Of a stretch of DNA of 64,000 nucleotides, positions 317 through 42,364 are shown in pieces. A program made the translations under genes and the position numbers. Position 1 is the stretch's first letter. Every line of letters begins with the position of its first letter. Location: contig NC_092678.1 of NCBI RefSeq assembly GCF_964355755.1, positions 2,939,922 through 3,003,921 on the forward strand, in the 5' to 3' direction. The notes beneath the pieces are model-generated. The model saw only the letters and a list, made by a program, of their open reading frames with translations, searched no databases and was not told where the DNA came from. Origin of the DNA: Antedon mediterranea (Eukaryota; Echinodermata; Crinoidea; Comatulida; Antedonidae).

Positions 317-2176
317 ATGGTAGGGAAGAAAATTGTTGATATTTTGTGGATAATTTCACTCATAACAAATGTGTTGCCAACAAACCAAGAGGAATCTAGA
401 CAACTTGTGATAGGAGGAGAATTCCCTCAAGCTATAGATTCTAATATAGGTGACATAATTGACTTTAAATGTACTGATCAAACTTTCACAGAGGAACATT
501 ACGTCATCTGGATCAGAACAAAATCTTATACTTTAGATGAAACAGAGATTTACAGAAATGGAACACTGCTGTCCTCTGACCTTGGCCAAGAAGCACTGGC
601 ATACTCACTTAACCACTCCATTGAAGCTGAATTTACAATAACAATCCCAAGAGGACTTGCGCATATTCTTAACTTAAACAATTATAGATGTGCAGTAATA
701 GCAACTAGTACTGGTAATGCATTAATAACTGGTTATGTCATTTTGTTAGTAGAATATCCACCACCAGCACCATATCCTCTTTGTACTTCTACTGGTTATC
801 AGAGTGATTTAATTGGACAAAATGTTATCTTGACCTGTATAACACAGCCAGGAAATCCAACCATAAGCATTCAATGGTGGAGAAATGATGTAATGGTTTT
901 AAATAGAGATATAGCATATAATAATAGAGCGAGATTTACAGAATACTCATTGGACTATACCTTTATTCTTCAACAAGAAGATTTAGAGGCAACATACCAA
1001 TGTAGGGTCACATGGATGGAGGATGTTACAACATGTACAGTAAATGAAACATCTCAGACAACAATATTACCAACAACAGAAGAACCAACCAGTGGAACGT
1101 TTAGACATCAAACAAATATTGAATCGACAGTTTCTGAATATAACAGGATTAAGACAACAATTAGCAGAAACACATTGACTATAACACCAACAATTTATCA
1201 GACAACATTTATAATGGAACACACTACAATTTCTGATAGGTCATCAAATGCAGTGACTACACCAACCATCCTTCAGACAACATCTATAATGGAAGACACT
1301 ACAAGTTCTGATAAGACTACAACTTCTAAGTCAACAATTAAAAGAAACACATTGACTACACCAACAATTTATCAGACATCTCAACCGGAAGACACTACAA
1401 ATTCTGATAAGTCAACAATTAGCAGAAACACATTGGCTACACCAACAATTTATCAGACATCTCAACCGGAAGACACTACAAATTCTGATAAGTCAACAAT
1501 TAGCAGAAACACATTGGCTACACCAACAATCTATCAGACAACATCTCAACTGGAAGACACTACAATTTCTGATAAGTCAACAATTAGCAGAAACACTTTG
1601 ACTACACCAACAATCCATCAGAAAATATCTATAATGGAAGACACTACAATTTCTGATATGTCAACAATTAGCAGAAGCACATTGACTACATCAACAATCC
1701 ATCAGACAACATCTACAATGGAAGGCACAACAGCTTCTGATAAGTCAACAATTAGCAGAAGCAGATTGACTAAACCAACAATCCATCAGACAACATCTAA
1801 ACTGGACGACACTACATCTTCTGATAAGTCTTTTACCATGGGATTGTCTCTTGGTGCAGTTATTGTTCTTCTGATAATACTTCTAATAATCGCTTTACTG
1901 TACAAGAGAAATCAGACAAATCAGATGCCAAATAATGATCAAAAGATGGCAGAAGTAACAGAATCATACAGCACACCAGTATACATCAAACCAATTGAAA
2001 TGAACACTGAACATGTCTATCATGAAGTTGAAGAAGGAAAAGAGCACATCTACAACACCATCAAGGAAGAAAAGAAGAATCATGTATATGATAATGTCAA
2101 GGAGGAAAGGAAAAAAGATCCAGAAGATACAGTTTACTGTACGTCAATACAACCAAATCATAAGCAAAACAGGTAG
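317..2176 (+). CDS. Two-Ig-domain transmembrane receptor, class A tail (619 aa), gene 1 of the array
   Basis: This is a probable cell-surface receptor encoded by one uninterrupted frame. Residues 1-23 form a signal peptide. Ig1 has Cys52, Trp65 and Cys125; a PPPAPYPLC linker lies near 148-156; Ig2 has Cys174, Trp187 and Cys229, with Cys156 and Cys240 as a possible second disulfide. Residues 247-507 are a Ser/Thr-rich mucin-like stalk, the longest in the family, built from tandem 27-28 residue units. A transmembrane helix near 508-531 ends in LLYKRN. The tail has YHEV, YNTI and YDNV separated by 7 and 8 residues, the ITAM spacing. N-glycosylation sequons are present. The ATG was chosen because the family shares MVGDKLVDILWIISLI here. 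The Ig fold is clear. The ligand and any signalling role are unknown, and I recognise no named orthologue. Confidence 0.85.
   Translation: MVGKKIVDILWIISLITNVLPTNQEESRQLVIGGEFPQAIDSNIGDIIDFKCTDQTFTEEHYVIWIRTKSYTLDETEIYRNGTLLSSDLGQEALAYSLNHSIEAEFTITIPRGLAHILNLNNYRCAVIATSTGNALITGYVILLVEYPPPAPYPLCTSTGYQSDLIGQNVILTCITQPGNPTISIQWWRNDVMVLNRDIAYNNRARFTEYSLDYTFILQQEDLEATYQCRVTWMEDVTTCTVNETSQTTILPTTEEPTSGTFRHQTNIESTVSEYNRIKTTISRNTLTITPTIYQTTFIMEHTTISDRSSNAVTTPTILQTTSIMEDTTSSDKTTTSKSTIKRNTLTTPTIYQTSQPEDTTNSDKSTISRNTLATPTIYQTSQPEDTTNSDKSTISRNTLATPTIYQTTSQLEDTTISDKSTISRNTLTTPTIHQKISIMEDTTISDMSTISRSTLTTSTIHQTTSTMEGTTASDKSTISRSRLTKPTIHQTTSKLDDTTSSDKSFTMGLSLGAVIVLLIILLIIALLYKRNQTNQMPNNDQKMAEVTESYSTPVYIKPIEMNTEHVYHEVEEGKEHIYNTIKEEKKNHVYDNVKEERKKDPEDTVYCTSIQPNHKQNR
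1341..1830 (+). repeat. Coding tandem repeat in the stalk of gene 1
   Basis: An 81-87 bp unit encoding NTLTTPTIYQTTSxxEDTT followed by xSDKSTISR repeats about six times, with degenerate copies starting near 1150. Two adjacent copies at about 1350 and 1431 are almost identical over 81 bp, which suggests recent unequal exchange. Gene 2 has about two units and gene 3 has none, so stalk length varies with copy number. Confidence 0.85.
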
Positions 2177-3429: not shown

Positions 3430-4986
3430 ATGGGAGGAGATAAACTTGTTGATATTTTGTGGATAATTTCACTTATAACAAACATTGTGCCAACAACACA
3501 AGAGCAATATAGAGGACTTGTGACAGCAGAATCACCTGAAACTGTATATGCTAATGAAGGTGATATATTTGATTTCAAATGTTCTGATCAAACTTTGACA
3601 GAGGAACATTACATTGTCTGGATCAGAAAAGATTACTATACTGAAGATAATGCAGAGATTTACAGAAATGGAATGTTGCTGACCTCTGACCTTGGACAAG
3701 AAGCACTGGCCTACTCACTTAACAACTCTACCAAAGCTGAATTTACAATAACAATTGAAAAAGGACTTAGGCATATTCTCCGCTTCAAAAATTATAGATG
3801 TGTAGCAATAGCAACTAGTACTGGTAATGAATTATTAACGGGTTATGTCGTTTTTTATGTATATTTTCCACCGCCAGCGCCTTATCCCCTTTGTACTTCT
3901 ACTGGTTTTCAGAGAGATTTAGTTGGCCAAACTGCTACCTTGACCTGTAAAACACAGCAAGCTAATCCACTACTATGGATTCAATGGTGGAGAAATGAAG
4001 TCATGGTTTCGAGTAGAAATGTTGCATTTTTGAGTGGAGAGAGGTTTACAGAATATCCATTGGATTATAACTTTATTCTTCAACAAGAAGATTTAGATGC
4101 AACATACCAATGCAGAGTAACATGGTGGGGCCCGGGGGATATTACAACGTGTACAGCAGAAGAAACATCACAGACAACAATATTACCAACAGAACCAATA
4201 ACAGACCCAGAAACATTGACGACAAAAGCCAGCAAAACTACTTGGTATCAAACAAATATTGCATCAACATCGATTGTTTCAACAATTAGCAGAAATACAT
4301 TGACTCCACCAACAATCCATCAGACAACATCTAAAATGGAAGTTGCTACAACTTCTGATAAGTCAATAATTAGCAGAAACACATTGGCTACACCAACATT
4401 TTATCAAACAACATCTACTACAACTTTAACTTCACAGTTTTTAATCATTGGATTGTCTCTTGGTGCAGTTATTGTTCTTCTACTGATATTCCTAATAATC
4501 TCATTACTGTACAAGAGAAATCCTAGAAATCAGATGCTAAACAATGGTGTTGCTGAAGTAACTGACATATACAACAAATCAATTGAAATGAACACTGAAC
4601 ATGTCTATAATGATGTTGCTGAAGAAAAAGAACATGTCTATAATGATGTTGCTGAAGAAAAAGAACATGTCTATAATGATGTTGCTGAAGAAAAAGAACA
4701 TGTTTATAATGATGTTGCAAAAGAAAAAGAACATGTCTATAATTATGTTGCTGAAGAAAAAGATCATGTCTATAATTATGTTGCTGAAGAAAAAGAACAT
4801 GTCTATAATGATGTTGCTGAAGAAAAAGAACATGTCTATAATGATGTTAAGGAAGAAAATAACAAGGAACATGTATATTACAATGATGCAGGAGATAAGG
4901 TCTACATTAATACTACCACATCTGGACATAAGGCTAATAAGAAACAGGTAGAAGATATAAAGTATGAGATTACATTGCCATCATAA
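3430..4986 (+). CDS. Two-Ig-domain transmembrane receptor, class A tail with eight YxxV repeats (518 aa), gene 2
   Basis: This member has the same plan as gene 1: a signal peptide, Ig1 (Cys in FDFKCSDQ, Trp in IVWIRK, Cys in YRCVAIATS), the PPPAPYPLC linker, Ig2 (LTCKTQ, IQWWRNEV, TYQCRVTW), a short Ser/Thr stalk with about two of the gene 1 repeats, and a transmembrane helix ending in LLYKRN. The tail is dominated by EHVYNDVAEEK repeated eight times, plus a degenerate ninth unit. Each YNDV is followed by 7 residues and the next tyrosine, so consecutive units form YxxV-x7-YxxV, the spacing of an ITAM with Val in place of Leu/Ile. The helix has no basic residue in its core, so nothing suggests dependence on an adaptor chain. 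A signalling function is inference. Confidence 0.85.
   Translation: MGGDKLVDILWIISLITNIVPTTQEQYRGLVTAESPETVYANEGDIFDFKCSDQTLTEEHYIVWIRKDYYTEDNAEIYRNGMLLTSDLGQEALAYSLNNSTKAEFTITIEKGLRHILRFKNYRCVAIATSTGNELLTGYVVFYVYFPPPAPYPLCTSTGFQRDLVGQTATLTCKTQQANPLLWIQWWRNEVMVSSRNVAFLSGERFTEYPLDYNFILQQEDLDATYQCRVTWWGPGDITTCTAEETSQTTILPTEPITDPETLTTKASKTTWYQTNIASTSIVSTISRNTLTPPTIHQTTSKMEVATTSDKSIISRNTLATPTFYQTTSTTTLTSQFLIIGLSLGAVIVLLLIFLIISLLYKRNPRNQMLNNGVAEVTDIYNKSIEMNTEHVYNDVAEEKEHVYNDVAEEKEHVYNDVAEEKEHVYNDVAKEKEHVYNYVAEEKDHVYNYVAEEKEHVYNDVAEEKEHVYNDVKEENNKEHVYYNDAGDKVYINTTTSGHKANKKQVEDIKYEITLPS
4597..4860 (+). repeat. Eight in-frame 33-bp units encoding YxxV motifs
   Basis: The 33-bp unit beginning GAACATGTCTATAATGATGT is repeated eight times without frame loss. 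Most differences fall at few positions (D to Y in YNYV, E to K in AKEK, E to D in DHVY), and every tyrosine is kept. High identity between units points to recent slippage or unequal exchange. Confidence 0.9.
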
Positions 4987-8423: not shown

Positions 8424-8582
8424 GATTATTTCACTAATAACAAACATTGTGAAACAACACAAGAGGAATCTAGACGACTTGTAACAGAAGACTCACCTAT
8501 ATCTACTGCTTCAAATTAAGGTGATATAATTGACTTCAAATGTACTGATGAATTTTTAAATGAGGAATATTACATCTCGTCT
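8424..8582 (+). pseudogene. Relic of an Ig receptor 5' end
   Basis: The text matches the signal peptide and start of Ig1 of the family (WIISLITNIV, EESRRLVTE, then GDIIDFKCTDE). It lacks the ATG, has a frameshift just after the signal peptide, and has an in-frame TAA at 8517-8519 where functional copies have a Glu codon. Homology stops near 8582, before the Ig1 tryptophan. The upstream GAAGTATATAATATTTGGTA block at about 8355 is the family promoter, so promoter and exon start were duplicated together and then decayed. Confidence 0.85.
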
Positions 8583-8784
8583 AATCAAAGATAACGTATT
8601 GTTCTAGTTTTAATTGTGGTTGGAAAACGTTTATATTGTTTCGTAGACTTGCATCCCTTGCTATTGTATAAAGCATGTATGAAATATAACAAATGTGCAA
8701 TAAAGTACAGTAATTTCAATGCTGTTCAAATTAGTGAATTAATCATGCGTTGATCTGTCATACTATTTTTGCGACACATGGTAG

Positions 8785-9117
8785 GTAAACAAAGGCATAT
8801 AAAAAGTTCATTGAAGTATACAATACTTTTGATATGTATATTCTTAATTTCTACACAAAATATAAACAGTTCTTTGCAGGTAAAAAGATTCATACTGTAC
8901 TTTAATATAAATAACCAATCAATAACATTTAATACCCATAGGAATTTTTTTTTTTAATTGTTTACAAAAACAAAATTATTTACAACATATTTTTGGCCAG
9001 AAATATTTATTTTAAAACCAAAATGTGTATTCTACAGTAATGGAATATTCTATTTAAGGAAGTTAATTTCTAATATTAGTTTGACAATTGAGCATTAGAT
9101 TATTACAAACTTCAGTC
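8785..9117 (+). promoter_or_regulatory. Promoter and possible 5' UTR intron of receptor gene 3
   Basis: GTAAACAAAGG at 8785-8795 (FOX-type) abuts CATATAAAAAG at 8796-8806 (TATA-like) and the start-site block GAAGTATACAATACTTTTGA. TTTGCAG|GTAAAA at 8874-8885 is a good splice donor and ACTTCAG|TCATG ending at 9115 a plausible acceptor, giving an intron of about 236 bp in the 5' UTR. GGAATATTC and AAGGAAGTTAA lie inside that intron. Splicing is inference. Confidence 0.5.
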
Positions 9118-10185
9118 ATGGTGGGAGATAAACTTGTTGATATTTTGTGGATTATTTCACTTATAATAAACATATTGCAAACAAATCAAGAGGAATCTAG
9201 ACGACTTGTGACAGGAAAGAAATTTATTGATGCCACTGAAGGTGATATACTTGACTTCAAATGTACTGATCAAACTTTTATGCAGGAACATTACATCATC
9301 TGGTATAGAAAAATGGATGGATATGCTGAAGATGAAACAGAGATTTACAGAAATGGAACACTACTGACCTCTGACCTTGGAGAAGAAGCATTGGCATTTT
9401 CACTTAACAACGCCAATGGAATTGAATTTACAATAACCATTGTACGAGGGCTTGAACATTTTATACACTTAAATATTTATAGATGTGAAGTAATAGCAAC
9501 TAATACTGGTAATGAATTAATAGATATAACTGGTTATGTCATTTTGTTAGTAGAATATCCACCCCCAGCACCATATCCTCTTTGTACTTCTATTGGTTAT
9601 CAGAGTGATTTAATTGGACAAAATGTTACCTTGACCTGTATAACACAGTCAGGTAATCCAACAATAACTATTCAATGGTGGAGAAATGAAGTCATGGTTT
9701 GGAATGGAAATGTAACATATGATAGTCACTTGAGATTTAAAGAGTACTCATTGGACTATGCCTTCGATCTTCAACAAGAAGATTTGAATGCAACATACCA
9801 ATGTAGGGTCACATGGAAGGAGGATGTTACAACATGCAATGTACAGGAAACATCTCGGACAACAATATTACCAACAACAGAACCAGCGGAATTGGCAACA
9901 AAAACCATAAATCAGACAAATATTGCATCAACATCGTCTTTAACCATTGGATTGTCAATTGGTGCAGTTATTGTTCTTCTTCTAATACTACTAATAATCT
10001 TATTACTGTACAAGAGAAATCAGACGCCAAATAATGCTGTTCAAAAGACGGAAGATGTCACTGAAGTAACAGACATCTACAACAAACCAATTGAAATGAA
10101 CAAAGACCATGTCTATAATGAAGTTGCTGAAGAAAAAGAGCATGTCTATATAAATTATGTCAAGAGAGAAATGAACAAGGTATGA
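9118..10185 (+). CDS. Two-Ig-domain transmembrane receptor, class A tail (355 aa), gene 3
   Basis: The start is the ATG of MVGDKLVDILWIISLI; the frame is open 30 bases upstream but only from a TTG. The protein has a signal peptide, Ig1 (LDFKCTDQ, IIWYRK, YRCEVIATN), the PPPAPYPLC linker, Ig2 (LTCITQ, IQWWRNEV, TYQCRVTW, TTCNV), almost no stalk, a transmembrane helix near residues 285-310 and a short tail with IYNKPIEMN, DHVYNEV and EHVYINYV. The second tyrosine motif is disrupted by an inserted residue, so only a partial ITAM-like pair remains. The ectodomain is closest to gene 4 (shared EEALAFSLNN and VWNGNVTYDS), whose tail is of the other class. Confidence 0.85.
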   Translation: MVGDKLVDILWIISLIINILQTNQEESRRLVTGKKFIDATEGDILDFKCTDQTFMQEHYIIWYRKMDGYAEDETEIYRNGTLLTSDLGEEALAFSLNNANGIEFTITIVRGLEHFIHLNIYRCEVIATNTGNELIDITGYVILLVEYPPPAPYPLCTSIGYQSDLIGQNVTLTCITQSGNPTITIQWWRNEVMVWNGNVTYDSHLRFKEYSLDYAFDLQQEDLNATYQCRVTWKEDVTTCNVQETSRTTILPTTEPAELATKTINQTNIASTSSLTIGLSIGAVIVLLLILLIILLLYKRNQTPNNAVQKTEDVTEVTDIYNKPIEMNKDHVYNEVAEEKEHVYINYVKREMNKV

Positions 10186-10324
10186 TAAGTTATAAAGTAT
10201 GAGATTACATTGCCATCATAATCACCTCACAGATGATGACAACTGATAATAACGAATCTTAAATATAGTAAACACTGGAATATTATTTTACACAGTTACC
10301 TGTTAACATCTGGGTATACTGCCT

Positions 10325-10545
10325 CTAGTGTTTCAAAAGAGAAACCATGAAAATCAGACACCAAACAATAGTGATCAAACAATGGCAGGTGTCACTGAAG
10401 TAACAGACATCTACAACAAACCAATTGAAATGAACACAGAACATGTGTATAATAAAGTTGAAGAACATAATAATACTAAGGAAGAAAAAAACATGTTTGT
10501 TGCAATGAGCCAGAAGATGCAGTTTACCAAATCAAAAGATTAAAA
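10325..10545 (+). pseudogene. Duplicated class A receptor tail relic
   Basis: Just after gene 3, this stretch again encodes the juxtamembrane and tail text (KRNHENQTPNN, VTDIYNKPIEMN, TEHVYNKVEE) without Ig domains or a transmembrane helix. After KEEKN the homologous frame shifts: EPEDAVY, the gene 1-like end, continues in another frame. It is a leftover of a partial duplication. An alternative is a spliced tail exon for gene 3, but no acceptor or frame continuity supports that. Confidence 0.7.
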
Positions 10546-11184
10546 AAACAAAAAATGCCAATGTCATTTCATGTTAGTCACCTGAATAGAACTCTGAAAA
10601 GATGATTGTATATCAATTTGATCTCTTGTGAGCAAGATTACAAGAACTGGTGCTCTAACTGTAGCTCATTGAGGGTTTACAGAGTTTAATTGTCTATGGC
10701 ATCAAATTCCATAGAAGCTCTGTGGGTCTAATCAAGATGAAGTGTCCTAGTTATAATTTTGGTTGGGGAATTTTTATCATATTATTCTCACTTTATACTT
10801 ATAGCATTTAATCATTATCTTACTAAATATCTGAACATTTTAGTGGTATATATAATGGCTCTGAAAAAAACCAAACATACTACTAAAGTATATCTAGAGG
10901 TATACTGTAAGCCCACCACAATATAATAATATATATATAATACAATAACAATAACAATAACAATAATAGGCTATGAAACGACTATTGATAAATAAATTTA
11001 CAGTAACACTGTACACGTATAATTGGAGTGTCATTTGTTTTCATAGACTTGCATGTCCACTACTATATAAAGCATATATATGTATGTAATACACCAAATG
11101 AGCAAACATGTAAATGATGTCATAACTGAGCGATTAACCAGGTGGAGCGTAAAAGTATTTCTAAGACACATTGTATTTACAAAG
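10546..11184. other. Intergenic spacer between genes 3 and 4
   Basis: The first 200 bp resemble the 3' flank of gene 1 (shared CTAATCAAGATGAAGTG), so it is a probable 3' UTR. An AT-rich microsatellite with ACAATA triplets lies near 10919-10965. No coding signal is seen. Confidence 0.45.
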
Positions 11185-11505
11185 GTAAACAAAGGTATAT
11201 AAAAGGTTCACTAAAGTATATGATACTTATGATATGTATACTCTTTTCTAGACGAAATATAAAAAAGTTCTTTGCAGGTAAAAATATTCCTACTGTACTT
11301 TAACATAAATCATAATAACCAATCAATAGCATTTAATTACCCATAGGAATTAAACAAAATTGTTTAATTTATTTACAAAATATTCTTGGCCAGAAATATT
11401 TATTTTAAAAGCAATATTATAGATTAATGGAATATTCCATTTAAGGAAGTTAATTTGTAATATTCAGTTTGACAATTGAGTATTAGATTATTATGAATTG
11501 CAGTC
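11185..11505 (+). promoter_or_regulatory. Promoter and possible 5' UTR intron of receptor gene 4
   Basis: This is the clearest copy of the family promoter: GTAAACAAAGG at 11185-11195 followed directly by TATATAAAAGG at 11196-11206 and the AAAGTATATGATACTTATGA block. TTTGCAG|GTAAAA places a donor at 11278, and GAATTGCAG|TCATGG an acceptor ending at 11503. GGAATATTCC and AAGGAAGTTAA lie at about 11430-11452. Confidence 0.55.
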
Positions 11506-12831
11506 ATGGTGGGAGGTAAACTTGCTGATATTTTGTGGATTATTTCACTTATAATGAATGTATTGCAAACAAATCAAGAAGAATCTAGACAACTTGTGAC
11601 AGGAGAATTACAAAATGTTTTTGAAGCTACTGAAGGTGATATATTTGACTTAAAATGTACTAATCAATCTTTGACAGAGGAACATTACATCATCTGGTAT
11701 AGAAAAATTGATGGATTTTCTGAAAATGAAAAAGAGATTTACAGAAATGGAACACTACTGACCTCTGACCTCGGAGAAGAAGCATTGGCATTTTCACTTA
11801 ACAACGACAATGAAATTGAATTTACAATATCAATTGCAAGAGGGCTTGGACATTTTATGCACTTAAATGTTTATAGATGTGAAGTAATAGCAACTAGTAC
11901 TGGTAATGAATTAATAAATAAAGGTGGTTTTGTCATTTTGTTAGTAGAATATCCACCACCAGCACCATATCCTCTTTGTAGTTCAACTGGTTATCAGAGA
12001 GATTTAATTGGACAAAATGTTATCTTGACCTGTACAACACAGCTAGGTAATCCGACCATACTCATTGAATGGTGGAGAAATGAAGTCATGGTTTGGAATG
12101 GAAATGTAACATATGATAGTAACTTGAGATTTAAAGAGTACTCATTTGACTATGCTTTCAATCTTCAACAAGAAGATTTAGATGCAACATACCAATGTAG
12201 GGTCAAATGGAGGGAAGACGTTACAACATGTACAGTACAGGAAACATCTCTGACAACTATACTACCAACAACAGATGGAAACACAACCTCTACCAATGGA
12301 CCTAAAGAATCTCAAGTCAGCATAATAATATATCTATTTGCTATTCCAACCGTTATTTGCATTTGTCTTCTAGTTGCAATTTGTGTTGTCTTGAAAAAAC
12401 AAGCTGGAAAAGGTGGTGATATAGTACAGATGAAGTATTGGAAAAACCACAAAAACCTACAACAGAATTCAGGTAAGAGTCATGGATTATACAGAGAGTC
12501 TAATTCCATGTATGATGGATCAGCTACAAAGAATCAACCACAATTTATGATACAGCCAGATCTGAAGACATCATCTAACACACGCAATAGAAGCGGCACC
12601 TATGCTCAAGTAGTTCCAAAATCAATAAGAAATTCCAAATTACAGCAAGATAAGGAATATCCTACAGAAGATGACAATGGTATGGTTGATAATAACATAT
12701 ATGAAGGTGGGTTTGAAGTTACTAAATCACAGAATGGAAGCTTGAGAATTTCCAATATGCAGCAAGATAAGGAGTCAGAATGCCCATCGGATGATGATGA
12801 CCATGTAATGGAGGAGGAGTGTAATCTATGA
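11506..12831 (+). CDS. Two-Ig-domain transmembrane receptor, class B tail (441 aa), gene 4
   Basis: This is the first class B member. It has the family signal peptide, Ig1 (FDLKCTNQ, IIWYRK, YRCEVIATS), the PPPAPYPLC linker and Ig2 (LTCTTQ, IEWWRNEV, TYQCRVKW, TTCTV), with a very short stalk. The transmembrane segment is of a different type, SIIIYLFAIPTVICICLLVA, followed by LKKQAGKG. The tail has GLYRES, NSMYDG, TYAQVVPKS and NNIYEGGF. TYAQV resembles the inhibitory YxxV motif of mammalian paired receptors, but position -2 is Gly rather than Ser/Ile/Val/Leu, so it is only ITIM-like. The ectodomain is nearly that of gene 3. Confidence 0.85.
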   Translation: MVGGKLADILWIISLIMNVLQTNQEESRQLVTGELQNVFEATEGDIFDLKCTNQSLTEEHYIIWYRKIDGFSENEKEIYRNGTLLTSDLGEEALAFSLNNDNEIEFTISIARGLGHFMHLNVYRCEVIATSTGNELINKGGFVILLVEYPPPAPYPLCSSTGYQRDLIGQNVILTCTTQLGNPTILIEWWRNEVMVWNGNVTYDSNLRFKEYSFDYAFNLQQEDLDATYQCRVKWREDVTTCTVQETSLTTILPTTDGNTTSTNGPKESQVSIIIYLFAIPTVICICLLVAICVVLKKQAGKGGDIVQMKYWKNHKNLQQNSGKSHGLYRESNSMYDGSATKNQPQFMIQPDLKTSSNTRNRSGTYAQVVPKSIRNSKLQQDKEYPTEDDNGMVDNNIYEGGFEVTKSQNGSLRISNMQQDKESECPSDDDDHVMEEECNL

Positions 12832-13791: not shown

Positions 13792-13900
13792 GTAAACAAA
13801 GGAATATAAAAGGCTCACTGAGGTATACAATACTTTTATTTATGGAGATGTGATTGATGTTACTGAATCACAGAATGGAACAATTCCCTTAATTGATTAA
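13792..13900 (+). pseudogene. Promoter fused directly to a class B tail end
   Basis: A family promoter (GTAAACAAAGG, AATATAAAAGG, GAGGTATACAATACTTTTAT) runs within a few bases into TTTATGGAGATGTGATTGAT and a tail end encoding IYGDVIDVTESQNG with its TAA stop. Everything between promoter and last 20 codons of a gene 7-like copy is missing. This looks like an internal-deletion relic. A separate tiny gene is unlikely. Confidence 0.75.
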
Positions 13901-14473: not shown

Positions 14474-15979
14474 ATGGTGGGAAATAAACTTGCTGATATT
14501 TTGTGGATTATTTCACTCATAACAAATATATTGCAAACAAACCAAGAGGAATATAGAATATTGATAGGAGATTCACATGAACGTGTACCTGTCACTGAAG
14601 GTGATATAATCCACCTCCAATGTACTGATCAAACTTTGACAGGGGATCACTACATCATCTGGAACAGAGCCATTCTGTTCAATTCAGATAAAACAGAGAT
14701 TTACAGAAATGGAATGCTATCGACCTCTGACCTAGGACAAGAAGCATTGGCATACTCACTTAACAACTCCACTGAAGTTGAATTTACAATAACCATTGCA
14801 CAAGGGCTTGAACAATATCTTAACTTAAATGTGTATAGATGTGAAGTAATACCAACTAGTACTGGTGATGAATTAAAAGATATAACTGGTTCTGTCCTTC
14901 TGGAAGTAAGATATCCACCACCAGCACCATATCCCCTTTGTACTTCTATTGGTTATCAGAGTGATTTAATTGGACAAAACATTACCTTGACCTGCAGAAC
15001 ACAGCCAGGTTATCCATCAATAACAATTCAATGGTGGAGAAATGAAGTCATGGTTTTGAATGAAAATGTAACATATGATAGTAACTTGAGATTTACAGAA
15101 TACTTATTGAACTACACATTTACTCTTCAACAACTAGATTTAGAGGCAACATACCAATGTAGGGTCAATTGGATGGAGGATGGTAAAAAATGTACAGTAG
15201 CGGAAACATCTCAGACAACAATACCAACAACAGAAATATTCACCACATCAATACAAGAGACATTGACCACATCAATACCAGAGACATTGATCACATCAAC
15301 ATCAATTAAGTTGGCTACTGCAGGTAAAATTACTCTGAAGCTGCAATCCTCTGTGACAGATGGAACCACAGCAAACACAACTTCTACCACTGACACTGAA
15401 GAAGAATCTTCTAATGACGGCAGCATAATAATATATCTATTTGCTATTCCAGCTGTTATTTGTGTTTGTCTTCTAGTGTTTCTAATTTGTGGTGTCTTGA
15501 AGAAACAAGCTGGAAAAGGAAACTCTACAACAAATGGTGATAAAATGCAGATGAAGCATTCCACTAAAAGTAAGGGATTATACAGAGAGTCTAACCCCAT
15601 GTATCATTTATCAGCTTCAAAGAATCAACCAGAATTTATGATACAGCCAGATCTGAAGACATCATCTGACACACGCAATAGAAGTGACGCCTATTCCCAG
15701 GTAGTTCCAAAATCAATGAGAAATTCCAAATTACAGCAAGTTAAGGAGTCTGAATATCCTACAGAAGATGACAACGGTATGGTTGATAACAACATATATG
15801 AAGGTGGGTTTGAAGTTACAGAATCACAGAATGGAATCTCGAGAAATGCTAATATGCAGCAAGATAAGGAGTCTGAATGTCCATCAGAAGATGACCATGT
15901 AATGGTTGAAAACAACAGTTATGGAGGTGTGAATGACATCACAGAATCACAGAATGGAGAAATACCCGCAATTGATTAA
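14474..15979 (+). CDS. Two-Ig-domain transmembrane receptor, class B tail (501 aa), gene 5
   Basis: The family ATG (MVGNKLADILWIISLI) is used; the frame runs 30 bases further upstream from a TTG only. The protein has a signal peptide, Ig1 (IHLQCTDQ, IIWNRA, YRCEVIPTS), the PPPAPYPLC linker, Ig2 (LTCRTQ, IQWWRNEV, TYQCRVNW, KKCTV), a Thr-rich stalk of about 65 residues and a SIIIYLFAIPAVICVCLLVF helix. The tail has GLYRES, NPMYHL, AYSQVVPKS, NNIYEGGF and NNSYGGV. AYSQV replaces AYAQV. The 3' half and flank are almost the same as the truncated copy at 16608, showing recent tandem duplication. Function is inferred only from architecture. Confidence 0.85.
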   Translation: MVGNKLADILWIISLITNILQTNQEEYRILIGDSHERVPVTEGDIIHLQCTDQTLTGDHYIIWNRAILFNSDKTEIYRNGMLSTSDLGQEALAYSLNNSTEVEFTITIAQGLEQYLNLNVYRCEVIPTSTGDELKDITGSVLLEVRYPPPAPYPLCTSIGYQSDLIGQNITLTCRTQPGYPSITIQWWRNEVMVLNENVTYDSNLRFTEYLLNYTFTLQQLDLEATYQCRVNWMEDGKKCTVAETSQTTIPTTEIFTTSIQETLTTSIPETLITSTSIKLATAGKITLKLQSSVTDGTTANTTSTTDTEEESSNDGSIIIYLFAIPAVICVCLLVFLICGVLKKQAGKGNSTTNGDKMQMKHSTKSKGLYRESNPMYHLSASKNQPEFMIQPDLKTSSDTRNRSDAYSQVVPKSMRNSKLQQVKESEYPTEDDNGMVDNNIYEGGFEVTESQNGISRNANMQQDKESECPSEDDHVMVENNSYGGVNDITESQNGEIPAID

Positions 15980-16201: not shown

Positions 16202-16607
16202 AGACCCCTTCCCTGCAATTTTGGACGTTTTTTGGAAAATAATACATATATATCACTTTAAAAACATTAAACCATGTCATTCCTCGTCTTAAATGTACGT
16301 TTTATGGTAAATTATGATAAAAAGTGAGAAACCATGCACTACCTAAGTAGCTCGCGGCGATCGACCTCTCGTGGACGGTCTTAGGCCTAGCCTAGCTAGG
16401 CTTAGTTTTGTAGGCCTAGCTGGTAAACATCGATAACGTACGAACATCGTACGCTAGCTATATACCTAGCCTGACGTTGTATAGTTGCTGCATTAATTGT
16501 CTTTCTATTTTTGCCAGACTCCGTTGATACAAATTGGGGAAAACCCGGTATTTTCGCTGAAAAGTTAGGAGTCTTCCATTTGTTTTGGCTTCACGATCGA
16601 TCGAAAA
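16202..16607. mobile_element. Foreign segment replacing the 5' half of the next receptor
   Basis: The 3' flank of gene 5 matches that of the next copy up to the TTAA at 16198-16201. It then switches to unrelated sequence starting AGACCCCTTCCCTGCAATTT, with AGGCCTAG-rich text near 16383-16425. At about 16610 it switches into the middle of Ig1 of the next receptor. It looks like a remnant of a mobile or rearranged segment joined to the array. No second terminal repeat is visible, so the class is unknown. Confidence 0.5.
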
Positions 16608-17933
16608 GTGGGCGAATTACTGGCATACTCACTTAACAATTCCACTCAAGTTGAATATACAATATCAATCACAAAAGGGCTTGGGCATATTCTTCACTTA
16701 AATAGGTATGAGTGTAAAGTAATAGCATCAAGCACTGGTGATGAATTAATAGATATAACTGGTCATGTAATTCTGCCTATAGAATTTCCGCCACCAGCAC
16801 CATATCCTCTATGTACTTCTACTGGTTACCAGAGTGATTTAATTGGAAAAAATGTTACCTTGACCTGTACAACACAGTCAGGTCATCCAACAATAACTAT
16901 TCAATGGTGGAGAAATGAAGTCATGGTTCGGAGTGGAAAAGTGGAATATAATAGTAACATGAGATTTACAGAATACTCATTGGACTACATCTTTAATCTT
17001 CAACAAGAAGAATTAGAGGCAACATACCAATGTAGGGTCATTTGGATGGAGGATGTTACAAAATGTACAGTACAAGAAACATCTCAGACAACAATATTAC
17101 CAACAACGGCAGAGATATTTACCACACCAACACGGAAGACATTGACCACATCAACACTGGAGATATTGACCACACCAACACGGAAGACATTGACCACATC
17201 AACACTAGAGATATTGACCACATCAACATCAGAAACATTGACCACACAAAAACTGGAGATATTGACCACATCAACTGCAGGTAAAACTACTCAAAAACTG
17301 CAAACCTCTATAACAGATGGAACAACAGCAAACACAACCTCTCCTAATGGCACTGAAGAATCTGCTTCTAATGACGGCAGCATAATAATATATTTATTTG
17401 CTATTCCAGCTGTTATTTGTGCTTGTCTTCTATTGTTTGCAATTTGTGTTGTTTTAAAGAAACGAGCTGCAAAAGGAAAGTCTACAACAGATGGTGAAGT
17501 ACAGATGAAGTATTCCAATAAAAGTAAGAGATTATACAGAGAGTCTAACCCCATGTATAATGGATCAGCTACAAAGAATCAACCAGAATTTATGATACAG
17601 ACAGATCTGAAGACATCACCTGACACACGCAATAGAAGTGACGCCTATGCTCAGGTAGTTCCAAAATCAATGAGAAATTCCAAATTACAGCAAGTTAAGG
17701 AGTCTGAATATCCTACAGAAGATGCCAATGGTATGTTTGATAACAACATATATGAAGGTGGGTTTGAAGTTACAGAATCACAGAATGGAATCTCGAGAAA
17801 TGCTAATATGCAGCAAGATAAGGAGTCTGAATGTCCATCAGAAGATGACCATGTAATGGTTGAAAACAACATTTATGGAGGCATGAATGACATGACAGAA
17901 TCACAGAATAGAGAAATACCCGCAATTGATTAA
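16608..17933 (+). pseudogene. 5'-truncated class B Ig receptor, copy 6
   Basis: The frame begins in the second half of Ig1 (LAYSLNNSTQVEY, YECKVIASS) and continues intact through PPPAPYPLC, Ig2, a Thr-rich stalk with 24-bp repeats (about 17110-17280), the SIIIYLFAIPAVICACLLLF helix and a class B tail with AYAQVVPKS, NNIYEGGF and NNIYGGM. No ATG, signal peptide or first Ig1 cysteine precedes it: the frame upstream meets a stop at about 16569, and 16608 is only a GTG. The family promoter is also gone. About 440 codons remain without damage, so the truncation is recent. It could still be expressed if spliced to a new 5' exon, but no frame-compatible acceptor was found. Confidence 0.75.
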
Positions 17934-18150
17934 GTGCTCTTATAGAATCATTTCCGCATTGGTACTGTGACTTAGAAGAAGATAGTGTATCAATTCTATC
18001 TCTTTTGCACATGCACAATATTAAAGAACTAACATTGTATATAATTGCTTTCCAATTGGACTTCATGAAAGTCCTGTAGTTTAACCAAAACAAAGCATCT
18101 TAGGTTTATTTTTGGTGGGTGAGTCATGGTTTTGAGTAGGTGGCACTTAA

Positions 18151-19275
18151 AATGGACCTGAAATGGAATTTCGATTTTCAAGAAATTCACACATGTTATT
18201 TAAATGTATCAAATTAACACAAACCCATACAAATAAAAACAAAATGTATAGTATTTTGAGTAAAAACGAAATTTTAAGATACCATGGTAAATTAGCGAAA
18301 ATTACTCACGCCATTGCAATATTCTATTTCAACGGCCGTCGGAAGCCTCTATATTCACGATGTCACATATACACACGATGATATCGAGAGCGTGTATGCC
18401 GCCAGATAGTCAGTGAATGATCGACGGCCTGGAAAGATACGCGAAGCGTTGACACTAATACTAATTTATTCAATATCTAATGTTGTTGAAATATAGGTCC
18501 CTAAAATGTACTTCGTTTGTTCTAAAACCCGAATTTAGAAGGCCTACCTCCCAAACCTTTACTAGGCCTAGGCCCCCAATCCAGTGCGCGGAGTCGATCC
18601 ACCACCCACATCATGCGGCGAGGCTCCGTTTCATGTGCATCCAAGGACCAAAGCGATATCAACAACTTGCTGCGCTCATTGTCAAGCCAAAGTAAAATGA
18701 ATAAAATTTGTTTTCGAACTGCCTGATTCGTGACAAATAAATTATCATCTCATATTACTAATTTAATTCTGCTAAACTAAAAACTAAAGAAACTAACACA
18801 TTTTAGCAGTATAAATTACGAACGATACAAAATACACGAACGGAAAATATGGATACGCATCATTGCGCACGGAGCTGTATCCCGGACAACGTTGCCAGGC
18901 CAACTTCGGTATTGTCAGAAAAAAACCGTTGATTTTAAGATTTTAAATCGTCATTTACTCGATGAATAACCGTTTATACGGTAATAATTTTATCTAAAAA
19001 AATTCTAAATACGTTTCTGCAAATGCACAAGCATTTTTTAGAAAATACTCCATAGATTTCAAGAGTTATAGCCAAAAAACTGCAAATTGTCCATTGGAGG
19101 GATAGGAATATATTCGCAAAGTGACGTCACCCGCGAATTTTTTTGATTTTCAAATGGGGCTTTCCCCAAAAGGGCCAATTTATATTTTGTAACAATATAC
19201 ATTCTAGCAACACCTAATAGCCCCCAAAACATCATTCTAAAATGAAAAAAATCGAAAATCCATTTCAGGTCCATT
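18151..19275. mobile_element. TTAA-flanked inverted-repeat DNA transposon, non-autonomous
   Basis: The left end AATGGACCTGAAATGGAATT (18151 on) is mirrored at the right end (up to 19275) as TCCATTTCAGGTCCATT, and the terminal inverted repeat extends about 30 bp with one mismatch. TTAA occurs immediately outside both ends (18147-18150 and 19276-19279). Precise TTAA duplication is typical of piggyBac-type elements. The 1.1 kb interior has no transposase frame, so it is a MITE-like derivative. Confidence 0.7.
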
Positions 19276-19429
19276 TTAAAGAAATAAAGAATTGAACAAT
19301 GCAAATATAAGCATATTAAACAGCAATTAATAAATAACTTTACAGTAGACTTGTCCCTTGCTTTTGCATAAATCATATACTGCATGTACGAGTAACAATG
19401 TAATTTCAATATTAATTGAAATAATTCAG

Positions 19430-19804: not shown

Positions 19805-21367
19805 ATGGTGGGGGATAAACTTGTTGATATTTTGTGGATTATTTCACTCATAACAAATGTATTGCAAACAACACAAGAGGAACATAGAATATTGATAGGA
19901 AACTCAACTGAATTTGTACATGCCACTGAAGGTGATATAATCAACCTCCAATGTACTAATCAAACTTTGATTGAGGATCATTACATCATCTGGTCAAGAG
20001 AAACTCAATATTCTGGAGCTGAAAGAGATATTTACAGAAATGGAACACTATTAACCTCCGACCTTGGCCAAGAAGCACTGGCCTACTCACTTAACAACTC
20101 CACTGAATTTGAATTTACAATATCAGTTGCAAGTGGACTTGAACAATTTATTAACTTAAATAATTACAGATGTAAAGTCATAGCAACAAATACTAGTAAT
20201 GAATTAATAGATATAACTGGTGATGTCACTCTGTCTATACAATATCCACCACCAGCACCATATCCTCTTTGTAATTCTACTGGTTACCAGAGTGATTTAA
20301 TTGGACAAAATGCTACCTTGACCTGTACAACACAGCCAGGTTATACAACAATAAGCATTGAATGGCAGAAAAATGATGCAATGGTTTTGAGTAGAGATAT
20401 AGAATATAATGATAGAGAGAGATTTACAGAATACTCATTGAACTACACTTTTACTCTTCAACAAGAAGATTTAGAGGCAACATACCAATGTAGGGTCACA
20501 TGGAAGGAAGATTTTACAACATGTATAATACAGGAAACATCTCTGACAACAATATCAACAACAGATGGAAACACAACCTCTACCAATGACACTAAAGAAT
20601 CTTCTTCTTTAAATGAAGTCAGCATAATAATATATCTATTTGCTATTCCAGCTGTTATTTGTATTTGTCTTCTATTGTTTCTAATTTGTGGTGTCTTGAA
20701 GAAACAAGATGGAAAAGGAAAGTCTACAACAAATGGTGATAAAATGCAGATGAAGTATTCCAATAAAAGTAAGGGATTATACAGAGAGTCTAACCCCATG
20801 TATCATTTATCAGCTTCAAAGAATCAACCAGAATTTATGATACAGACAGATCTGAAGACATCATCTGACAAGCGCAATAGAAGTGACGCCTATGCTCAAG
20901 TAGTTCCAAAATCAATAAGAAATTCAAAATTACAGCAAGATAAGGAGTCTGAATATCCTACAGAAGATGACAATGGTATGATTGATAACAACATATATGA
21001 AGGTGGATTTGAAGTTACAGAATCACAGAATGGAAGCTTGAGAAATAACAATATGCAGCAGCATAAGCCATCTGAAGAAGACAATGGTATGGTGGAAAAT
21101 AACATTTATGGAGATGTGATTGACGTTACAGAATCTCAGAATGGAAGCTTGACAAATGCTAATACGCAGAAAGATAAGCAGTCTGAATGTCCATCTGAAG
21201 AAAACAATGGTATGGTGGAAAATAACATTTATGGAGATGTGATTGACGTTACTGAATCCCAGAATGGAAGCTTGAGAAATGCTAATACGCAGAAAGATAA
21301 GGAGTCTGAATGTCCATCTGAAGATGACCATGTAATGGTTGATAACAACATATATGACGGTGTATAA
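19805..21367 (+). CDS. Two-Ig-domain transmembrane receptor, class B tail with repeated NNIY units (520 aa), gene 7
   Basis: The start is the ATG of MVGDKLVDILWIISLI. The protein has a signal peptide, Ig1 (INLQCTNQ, IIWSRE, YRCKVIATN), the PPPAPYPLC linker and Ig2 (LTCTTQ, then IEWQKNDA, where the usual WWRN has become WQKN while the core Trp is kept, then TYQCRVTW and TTCII). The stalk is short and the helix is SIIIYLFAIPAVICICLLLF. The tail is the longest of class B, with GLYRES, NPMYHL, AYAQVVPKS and then four tandem units of about 36 residues, each with NNIY followed by EGGF, GDV, GDV or DGV. It is the last gene of the array and faces the GRAMD4-like gene tail to tail. Confidence 0.85.
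   Translation: MVGDKLVDILWIISLITNVLQTTQEEHRILIGNSTEFVHATEGDIINLQCTNQTLIEDHYIIWSRETQYSGAERDIYRNGTLLTSDLGQEALAYSLNNSTEFEFTISVASGLEQFINLNNYRCKVIATNTSNELIDITGDVTLSIQYPPPAPYPLCNSTGYQSDLIGQNATLTCTTQPGYTTISIEWQKNDAMVLSRDIEYNDRERFTEYSLNYTFTLQQEDLEATYQCRVTWKEDFTTCIIQETSLTTISTTDGNTTSTNDTKESSSLNEVSIIIYLFAIPAVICICLLLFLICGVLKKQDGKGKSTTNGDKMQMKYSNKSKGLYRESNPMYHLSASKNQPEFMIQTDLKTSSDKRNRSDAYAQVVPKSIRNSKLQQDKESEYPTEDDNGMIDNNIYEGGFEVTESQNGSLRNNNMQQHKPSEEDNGMVENNIYGDVIDVTESQNGSLTNANTQKDKQSECPSEENNGMVENNIYGDVIDVTESQNGSLRNANTQKDKESECPSEDDHVMVDNNIYDGV
20982..21364 (+). repeat. Tandem coding repeat in the class B tail
   Basis: A unit of about 105-114 bp encoding NNIYGDVIDVTESQNGSLRN followed by KESECPSEDD-type acidic text is repeated three to four times. 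The central two units are nearly identical. Genes 4, 5 and 6 have one or two such units, so tail tyrosine number varies with copy number. Confidence 0.8.
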
Positions 21368-34132: not shown

Positions 34133-36499
34133 CTACACGTTACTTGATGTTGCCACACCATTTGTTTGTGAGTGTGGAACATTCCGCCGACCTTTGAACT
34201 GTTGCGAGTGCTCGTTAGGAGTTGCTTGGCAGGTTGGAATGTTAAATTGTGGGATAAATTCTTGTGGCTTGTCAGCGCTTTTCTTATGTTGGTGTAACGG
34301 TGATATGTGATGCTTAGGTGATTTTACTTCTGATAAGTTACTATTTGGTAAGTGTCCATTTGCTGTCAATTCTAAAAGAACAAATTAAATACTAAATCAT
34401 TTGCATGGTCCTCAAAACACTGTAATAATATTACTAAAAAATCAAGAAATTACAAATTGAATTAAACTACAATAAGTTAAGATAAGTATTTAAACCTACC
34501 AGTTTTTTTCTGGCAATCCTTTGGGTTATTTGAATACTGCTTTTCACTTAAGTTTTTGTTAACCAATTCCGCGTAACTCGGAGGACTGGATGGAGGATGC
34601 AAGTCATCTGTCAGGTTTCCCGCAGGTCCCGATGACATCCCTGGGAACGAGTTGGCCACACTTTCAGTTGCCTCTGGCTCGAAAGCCGGATAACTTGCAC
34701 ATTGATATTGGTTGCGATGTTTGTCCTGCTGCTGTGGGAGTTCCTTGTACATGTCCTGAGCAGTCAATGGATCAATTTCTGATTGATATCCCATAGTAAC
34801 GTGTGGTGCTGAAGCACTCTGATTGGTCAGTGAGTGATTAAGAAGTGGAAAGCTACTGCCATCATGGACTAAAAAAGGGAAAAGAAGAATAAAGTGGAAA
34901 CATTGTAACTAATAATTCTGTTAATCACACTTCAAATTTACCATTTATTCTACTGCAGTAACGACATTGTGTTTAACACAAATTGTTTATCCAATTATTT
35001 CATTTATGGTAATCATAGTACATTGTTGCAGTGATTTTGTTATAAACAATTACATTGAAAACATCTAAAATCATATCGTGCAGTATTTCAGTAAAAAATT
35101 ACTGCAGTAACTGTTGTACAATAACTTTGCCATGATTACTTAAATTAGAAAAATTATAGAACCATAATGAACAGGTGAAAAATGGTGCAAAAATGACAAT
35201 AAAAAGTGATTTAAGACCGTTTCTAAAGTATACATTACAAGTATAATTTGAAATCTTATTACTGAAAAATTTAATGTTTATTTTGAAATTTGATGAATTT
35301 AACAACTATGTAATTTCCATGAGAACGACGATCATTATGTATAATTTTCATTTCAAATTTTGTTTAAATCGAGAATTTTTATATTCGTGTAATCTTATCC
35401 AAGGTTTCGTAATGGGTTTGACATTTTTAAGTTTTATTGCAAAACATAAATTTCTCATTCGTAATAAATAATAATTCAGTTGTATAGGTAGACATCACAA
35501 AGGGAAAAAACATATATTTCAGACAATATCTGTGTCGTATCTGCAGTATATATGTTAACATTTATTAAATGTCAGTCACCAAAACAGCGATCCATTCCAT
35601 AATATTTTTCTAGCTTTCTCTTTCCCAACATGACACAATTTCTTCTGGTATATGCTAATCATTATTTTCATTAAATGAAATAATTTTAATGACATCAGTC
35701 ATTTACTAAAACCTTACTTTTTCCTGTAATTCATATTTACTACTCTTTTTGCCCCTTATATTTCTTTCTTCTTTCTATTTTAATTCCCTGGTTACAGATT
35801 GTTCCTGTAAGCGTTGTTTTTAGCTGATTTCTATTCTTAACATATGTGTTGCTTGTGTTAAGCGCATTCACCATTTCCTTCCTCCAAATAATGAATACAA
35901 CATATTGACCTTATGACCTTATGAACGAGTCATTTACTTTCTGGGTTTGTGTCCCTCAATTAAATTCAAATCTATTACCCACAATTCATATCAATTCATT
36001 ACCCAAAATTCAATTAAAATGCAACAATTTAATGCATTACCCACAATTCAATGTAACATCACAATTCGTTGTTGTCCCTTGCCCAGATGTTGTAGTTTAT
36101 GTGTATTTTTTTTTTCATCTGATTCAGTTTCGTTTTACTGTTTGATTTTAGCCCCAAGATTCTATTAATAGTTTTTCACCTTTATGTAAAAGCAGTTTCA
36201 GATAACATGACTAACAAATGAAACTTTTAAGATGTCTAAAGTGTAAAATCAATATGGAAACGTTATTGAAAGCCAAAACTAAATCAGTTATACAAAAAAC
36301 AAACAAAAATAGGTAAATTTACCATTGCTTTCATCATAGTTACGACTGAAAGTAGTCAAATGCATAGGCTCATCGCCACGCCCATCACTCGGGAAACCAG
36401 CTGAAGTACGAAAACGTTGCGGCGGTCGGTATGAAGCATGAAGAGTTCCATCTATAGAATCATCATCGCTTAAGTTATCCATTTGATATTTATCAGTGG
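34133..36499 (-). CDS. LRIG: LRIG cytoplasmic-tail exons 11-13 and stop codon
   Basis: Exon 11 (36499-36323) encodes DKYQMDNLSDDDSIDGTLHA, exon 12 (34868-34500) a Pro/Ser-rich stretch with SSPPSYAELVNKN, and exon 13 (34371-34133) LTANGHLPNSN near its start and TSSNV at the end, with TAG at 34135-34133. NGHLPN recalls the SNGHLPK text near the end of vertebrate LRIG1. PSYAELV is a PPxY-like element (SPPSY) that could recruit WW-domain proteins; that role is inference. Exon joins are in phase 1. Confidence 0.85.

Positions 36500-42320: not shown

Positions 42321-42364
<44 letters not shown>

Follow-up and report, generated by a model that had tools for sequence, protein, structure and literature searches.

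A tandem array of putative immunoglobulin-family receptor genes in Antedon mediterranea carries matching neighbouring heads on two classes of tails

Results

In the crinoid Antedon mediterranea, neighbouring genes of a tandem array combine closely matching immunoglobulin (Ig) ectodomains with different transmembrane helices and cytoplasmic tails. We analyzed a window of 64,000 nucleotides (C9:2939922-3003921, where C9 is contig NC_092678.1) and searched the genome (354 Mb, 18 contigs), so that the counts of array members and relatives given here are lower bounds. At least 15 genes for putative receptors with two Ig domains lie on the same strand over 51 kb. Seven of them, g1 to g7, stand on the plus strand within the first 21.4 kb of the window, preceded by a1 to a8. 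Their order and tail class is a1, a2 (A), a3 (A), a4 (A), a5 (B), a6 (B), a7 (A), a8 (B), g1 (A), g2 (A), g3 (A), g4 (B), g5 (B), g6 (B) and g7 (B). Classes were assigned to 14 of the 15 genes, by reading and BLASTP except for a2, which was classed by reading alone (its frame ends just behind a class A-like helix); the short tail of a1 belongs to neither class. Recombination between heads and tails is well supported by incongruent trees, a second A/B pair, the borders of the modules and similarity that follows array position. The elements of the pair g3/g4 are as follows, in window coordinates.

9118 to 10185, plus strand: g3, 355 amino acids; g4-like head joined to a class A helix and a shortened tail
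8639 to 9881, plus strand: head module of g3 common to g4 (blastn); 0.48 kb of 5' flank, signal peptide, first and second Ig domains (Ig1, Ig2) and first stalk residues
9949 to 10182, plus strand: class A transmembrane helix and tail of g3; a single YxxV (YNEV), a repeat number below that of g2 and a deletion ahead of the stop
11506 to 12831, plus strand: g4, 441 amino acids; g3-like head, class B helix and tail
11039 to 12275, plus strand: head module of g4 common to g3 (blastn)
12322 to 12828, plus strand: class B transmembrane helix and tail of g4; NSMY, TYAQV and NNIYEGG

Neighbouring genes share heads and differ in tails

All six intact window genes encode a signal peptide, two Ig domains, a Thr-rich stalk, a helix and a tail in one frame, and the plus-strand frames of g3 and g4 are uninterrupted. 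An earlier note on this DNA had held that the ectodomains of g3 and g4 are closest to each other, that both carry EEALAFSLNN, VWNGNVTYDS and RFKEYS, and that their helices and tails differ. Our analysis confirms these points. The three strings are present in both genes and, as exact strings, in none of the five other window genes. The two ectodomains are identical at 200 of 250 residues and 90% of their DNA, the highest DNA identity among the 15 pairs of intact window genes. The tail region of g3 reads GLSIGAVIVLLLILLIILLLYKRN plus YNEV and is of class A, that of g4 reads IIIYLFAIPTVIC plus TYAQV and NNIYEGG and is of class B. Within the window g1 to g3 form class A and g4 to g7 class B, and the two classes are weakly alike, in the hydrophobic helix only (best A-B BLASTP match E 0.006; hhalign probability 12.8%, E 0.0022 over 33 columns).

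The ectodomains of a further adjacent A/B pair, a4/a5, are identical in 93% of their DNA and at 220 of 251 residues. After a2/a3, which are near-copies within class A (99%), these two pairs have the closest heads in the array. Over all 15 genes ectodomain identity tracks array distance (Mantel r 0.52, p 1e-4, near-copies a2/a3 included), and among 14 genes it is independent of tail class (mean 0.763 for the same and 0.758 for different classes, p 0.29). Alternative exons of one gene, which the earlier note had named as a way to explain the two tails, were not observed in the genomic reading frames: each gene reads from head to tail in one frame, and a6 (C9:2931098-2932852), about 8 kb upstream of the window, equals a database protein letter for letter (584/584) as a single open reading frame (ORF).

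Head and tail groupings are incongruent

In the ectodomain tree of the six intact window genes, g3 and g4 are sisters with support of 100/99, and they remain so on the signal peptide and Ig1 (99/98) and on Ig2 (96/91). The grouping that the tails would give, {g1,g2,g3}, is rejected by the approximately unbiased (AU) test for the whole ectodomain (p-AU 2e-5), for Ig1 (0.005) and for Ig2 (0.0015). A protein tree of eight sequences again unites g3 and g4 (90/95; {g1,g2,g3} p-AU 0.042). When splits were counted, g3+g4 beat every split separating the two in 1743 of 2000 resamples.

A larger ectodomain DNA tree with 18 genes contains three starred sister pairs, a2/a3 (A/A), a4/a5 (A/B) and g3/g4 (A/B), with support of 100/100 for a4+a5 and 100/99 for g3+g4. 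Class B as one clade is rejected in this tree (p-AU 2e-87). Its 16 labelled rows require five changes between A and B, three of them forced by starred branches; shuffled labels need 5.4-5.5 changes on average, and 245 of 500 shuffles were as low as the observed five. Two clean clades, g1 to g3 and g4 to g7, are ruled out by both the 6-gene and the 18-gene tree. Congruence of heads and tails, the outcome that would have spoken against tail swapping, was thus not observed, and a4/a5 repeats the incongruence of g3/g4.

Module borders and remnants point to a likely exchange before the helix

The likeness of g3 and g4 starts 0.48 kb before the ATG and ends a few residues into the stalk, at window positions 9881 and 12275; the head modules are 84% identical over 1272 aligned columns (blastn). 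Similarly, a4 and a5 are 87% identical over 1520 columns, a stretch that opens about 0.5 kb before the ATG and reaches into the stalk. In both pairs the homology stops before the membrane helix. The 3' flank of g3 matches the class A genes g2 (85%, 137 columns) and g1 (84%, 292 columns). Its 5' flank is B-like at 24 and A-like at 5 of 33 diagnostic sites, and the 5' flank tree sets g1+g2 apart (100/100) and places g3 and g4 with g5 and g7. Most likely g3 is the hybrid, a g4-like front on a class A back. Three remnants lie close to the pair.

8448 to 8576, plus strand: N-terminal remnant of an ectodomain with a stop, upstream of g3 (tblastn, translation)
10310 to 10489, plus strand: class A tail remnant behind g3 (tblastn), an open frame with 57.7% identity to 52 residues of the g3 tail
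13832 to 13900, plus strand: remnant of the end of a class B tail behind g4, spanning 22 codons and a stop, seen by eye and not among the tblastn hits at E 0.001

These remnants look like scars of exchange events. Tandem repeats occur in the stalks of g1, g5 and g6, and exchange probably took place in the repetitive Thr-rich stalk. Within coding frames we found an 84-base repeat in the g1 stalk (window 1327-1830), a 33-base repeat in the g2 tail (4597-4859) and a 123-base repeat in the g7 tail (20949-21356), so that stalk length and motif number could change by slippage. An intron in the 5' untranslated region was considered and rejected, as the alignment has the GTAAA donor in g3 and g4 only and no AG acceptor in g1 and g7.

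Several observations weigh against a simple transfer of one head between two tails. The ectodomain is a mosaic: over 23 sliding windows the nearest gene to g3 is g4 alone in 15 and tied in 2, g1 in 5 and g5 in 1, the g1-nearest windows being the domain linker and the start of Ig2. Of the 26 ectodomain sites that tell g1/g2 apart from g5/g7, 15 are A-like and 9 B-like in g3, against 16 and 8 in g4; with such mixed sites in both genes, g3 is the likelier but not the certain hybrid. Taken by itself, the 5' flank tree fails to reject {g1,g2,g3} (p-AU 0.081), tail class does not separate the 3' flanks cleanly (g2 and g4 match too, 83% over 197 columns), and 10 of the 15 inner branches of the 18-gene tree are weakly supported. 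On the side of the tails, g3 holds one YxxV, a number not above shuffle expectation. Two AlphaFold models were too poor to use (mean predicted local distance difference test scores of 42.9 and 35.0).

Tails, and second Ig domains within the two A/B pairs, are conserved, first Ig domains are near neutral

The ratio of nonsynonymous to synonymous substitution rates (dN/dS) in the tails is 0.40-0.57 in eight of nine pairs and 1.17 in g5-g6, with Fisher p < 0.05 in five of the nine. Ig1 is near the neutral ratio, with pooled proportions of nonsynonymous (pN) and synonymous (pS) differences of 0.166 and 0.159 (g1/g2, g3/g4, g5/g7). Positive selection on Ig1 was rejected, as none of the four sister pairs examined (g1/g2, g3/g4, g5/g7, a4/a5) departs from the neutral ratio. 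Within g3/g4 (p 0.02) and a4/a5 (p 0.04), Ig2 is under constraint.

These data bear on neutral birth-and-death, in which duplication, unequal crossing-over and gene conversion make neighbours alike and the A/B pairs are by-products without paired function. This explanation shares its recombination mechanism with the account we favour and differs on function. It fits similarity that tracks array position, the near-identity of a2 and a3 within one class, the broken genes a2, a7 and g6 and the scars in the array. It also fits a random relabelling in which both close pairs came out A/B in 29% of cases, so that preferential A/B pairing, or selection for pairing, is not demonstrated. The conserved tails of both classes, the conserved Ig2 of both pairs and the intact frames of a4, a5, g3 and g4 argue against it. 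Overall, we regard purely neutral turnover as a real possibility, at somewhat under an even chance.

Tail motifs do not give the polarity of signalling

Opposite, activating and inhibitory outputs had been proposed for g3 and g4, and this claim is not supported. Patterns of the immunoreceptor tyrosine-based inhibitory motif (ITIM; I, L, V, S or T at -2), the corresponding switch motif (ITSM) and the activation motif (ITAM) are absent from all seven window tails. Neither helix is charged inside: the only charged helix residue is a lysine at the cytoplasmic border of class A, and g4 has none (the helices of a4 and a5 were checked by eye). Pairs of YxxI/L/V at ITAM-like spacing (6-8 residues between) number two in g1 and seven in g2, counts reached by 0 of 2000 shuffles each. 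This repeat is absent from g3, which has fewer repeats and the deletion before the stop. Class B tails contain YAQV or YSQV, NNIY units and, in g5 to g7, NPMY. An ITAM with I or L was not found in g3, g4, a4 or a5. Upstream of the window, ITIM-pattern sites occur once each in a4 and a8 and not in a5 (17 tails scanned); the site in a4, a class A gene, is VKYEIV (by eye). As far as sequence goes, the signalling polarity of A versus B tails cannot be read from motifs. A region search with the g1 tail found no class A tail in other proteins at E 0.001 among 180 candidates. Two array members appear decoy-like: a3 (C9:2918533-2920002) has a class A helix and tail with zero cytoplasmic tyrosines, and a1 (C9:2909872-2913066) a 23-residue tail without tyrosine.

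True paired receptors, with ITAM-like activating A tails, dampening or adaptor-binding B tails and pairs selected for opposite outputs on one ligand, would be compatible with head-tail recombination. The spacing in g1 and g2 and the finding that, a2/a3 aside, the closest heads form two adjacent A/B pairs are consistent with such receptors. However, the +3 position is mostly V and not I/L, the ITAM-like spacing is missing in g3 and a4, which are the A members of both pairs, neither g4 nor a5 has an ITIM while the one such site in the pairs is in class A, and both pairs are discordant in the 29% of relabellings given above. We consider selected opposite outputs unlikely.

Array members and their relatives

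Intact single open frames were found for 12 of the 15 array genes. The broken ones are a2 with an in-frame stop, a7 with a stop and a frame change, and g6 without its front. The other window genes are listed below.

317 to 2176, plus strand: g1, 619 amino acids; signal peptide, two Ig domains, 258-residue Thr-rich stalk, class A helix and tail
3430 to 4986, plus strand: g2, 518 amino acids, built on the plan of g1; class A tail in which the 33-base repeat gives tandem EHVYNDVAEEK
14474 to 15979, plus strand: g5; class B tail with NPMY and YSQV
16605 to 17933, plus strand: g6, class B; signal peptide and the first half of Ig1 missing, the gene probably broken
19805 to 21367, plus strand: g7; class B tail with repeated NNIYGDV units

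Between g6 and g7, a 1.1 kb stretch (window 18147-19279) with 32-base terminal inverted repeats, 97% complementary, is probably a DNA transposon. On the minus strand, window 34477-47719 holds leucine-rich repeat and I-set segments (Pfam) plus a helix segment, a gene that we take to resemble the LRIG type.

Ig-family Pfam models match five of the seven window proteins above the cut-off (g1, g3, g4, g5, g7), best in the second domain, and g2 and g6 fall just under it; no sushi family is among the Pfam matches of the seven proteins to E 1. Six ectodomain cysteines stand at matching positions in all six intact window genes. Ig1 was assigned from this cysteine pattern and weak V-type PDB matches (E about 0.02). 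The tests made place the array family no more narrowly than in the broad immunoglobulin superfamily. When g4 was used for a protein search, a single match came up among 3219 candidates, an uncharacterised Antedon mediterranea protein (that of a6), and a profile built from the a6 protein and the six intact window genes gave the same single match among 6727 candidates. No match to g3 was found in phage records. Titles and abstract openings in the open-licence literature yielded no report on this two-Ig array family.

The best PDB match of g3 is SYG-2 (E 3.4e-6), which we take to be a nephrin-type adhesion protein. This raises the alternative that the genes encode proteins of adhesion or cell fusion, akin to the intronless echinoderm KirrelL, and not immune receptors, and a further single-exon Ig array on C3 fits that alternative as well. 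Kinship with KirrelL or nephrin is nevertheless indicated by SYG-2 only, weakly, and the match drops to E 0.0078 with the family profile. Moreover, heads that evolve without constraint, a division of tails into two classes and expansion in copy number are more typical of recognition families. An adhesion or cell-fusion role seems improbable to us.

Dispersed over the genome are relatives with class A-like helices, on C9 (two, one weakly so) and on C2; more distant relatives with long frames lie on C7. The relative at C2:34878453-34879826 has a class A-like tail with six YxxM matches (repeated VYDYM), presumably a motif of the phosphoinositide 3-kinase type. One at C9:1320134-1323538 has a very long repetitive stalk and a tail with three ITIM-pattern sites and one ITAM-pattern pair. 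In the distant relative at C7:30401546-30402619 the tail contains VDNFIYDGY, which resembles NNIYEGG of class B (weak BLASTP, best E 0.01), hinting that the class B tail may predate the array. The array on C3 (C3:11883001-11893000) is a separate tandem of five single-frame Ig ORFs of 487-498 amino acids, whose heads vary and whose tail is almost invariant by eye.

Discussion

We propose that this locus is a germline array of single-coding-exon genes for two-Ig cell-surface receptors, in which a head module of about 0.5 kb of 5' flank, signal peptide, Ig1, Ig2 and the start of the stalk would recombine with an older tail module, A or B. The same kind of exchange may have produced a4/a5 upstream. 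With the 5' flank carried along by the head, both genes of a pair should be co-expressed and should bind related ligands, and the A and B tails would recruit different phosphotyrosine-binding partners. This account in full, from recombining heads on two tails to co-expressed pairs with related ligands and different tail partners, is in our judgement probable.

Paired receptors are best known from vertebrates, and ascidian and cnidarian allorecognition families offer partial parallels. CD300A and CD300C, according to excerpts of PMC12447643, are clustered Ig receptors whose heads match and whose tails differ, the likeness of the heads being kept by gene conversion; one has an ITIM tail, the other a short tail and, for ITAM adaptors, a charged residue in the helix, and shared ligands are known. 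The Antedon neighbours likewise have closely matching ectodomains and different cytoplasmic parts. Unlike the CD300 pair, g3 and g4 have two tyrosine-bearing tails with no ITIM and no charge inside the helices, and their genes have a single coding exon.

Among invertebrates, Botryllus FcoR is an Ig-family cluster with ITIM, hemi-ITAM (hemITAM) or core YxxI/L/V tails and variation in gene content; its heads combine V-Ig, sushi and two C2-Ig domains, and motif swaps arise also by alternative splicing (excerpts of PMC12065747). The Antedon family, in contrast, has two Ig domains in separate single-frame genes. Hydractinia Alr candidates are mentioned in the same excerpts as having ITAM/ITIM motifs, and are a further invertebrate precedent for receptor clusters of this type. 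With these precedents, the suggestion in the earlier note that such a cluster would be new for an invertebrate was overstated. KirrelL, an intronless Ig-family surface protein present in a crinoid, is described as acting in cell fusion during skeleton formation and shows, in the excerpted text of PMC8903837, that intronless Ig genes are old in echinoderms; the array genes read as single open frames.

A bolder version would make the array an independently evolved echinoderm counterpart of natural killer receptor clusters, where a cassette of promoter and head is copied between two ancient tail classes via the repetitive stalk and repeatedly makes co-expressed pairs with the same ligand and different output. 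We think this rather unlikely, and offer it as speculation.

Overall, two pairs of neighbours with matched heads and different tails would set an independent echinoderm case beside the known paired families. The mutational route is directly visible here in module borders and scars within single-frame genes, with the repetitive stalk as candidate exchange zone. The array thereby makes it testable whether chance recombination yields pairs with different signals that selection then keeps.

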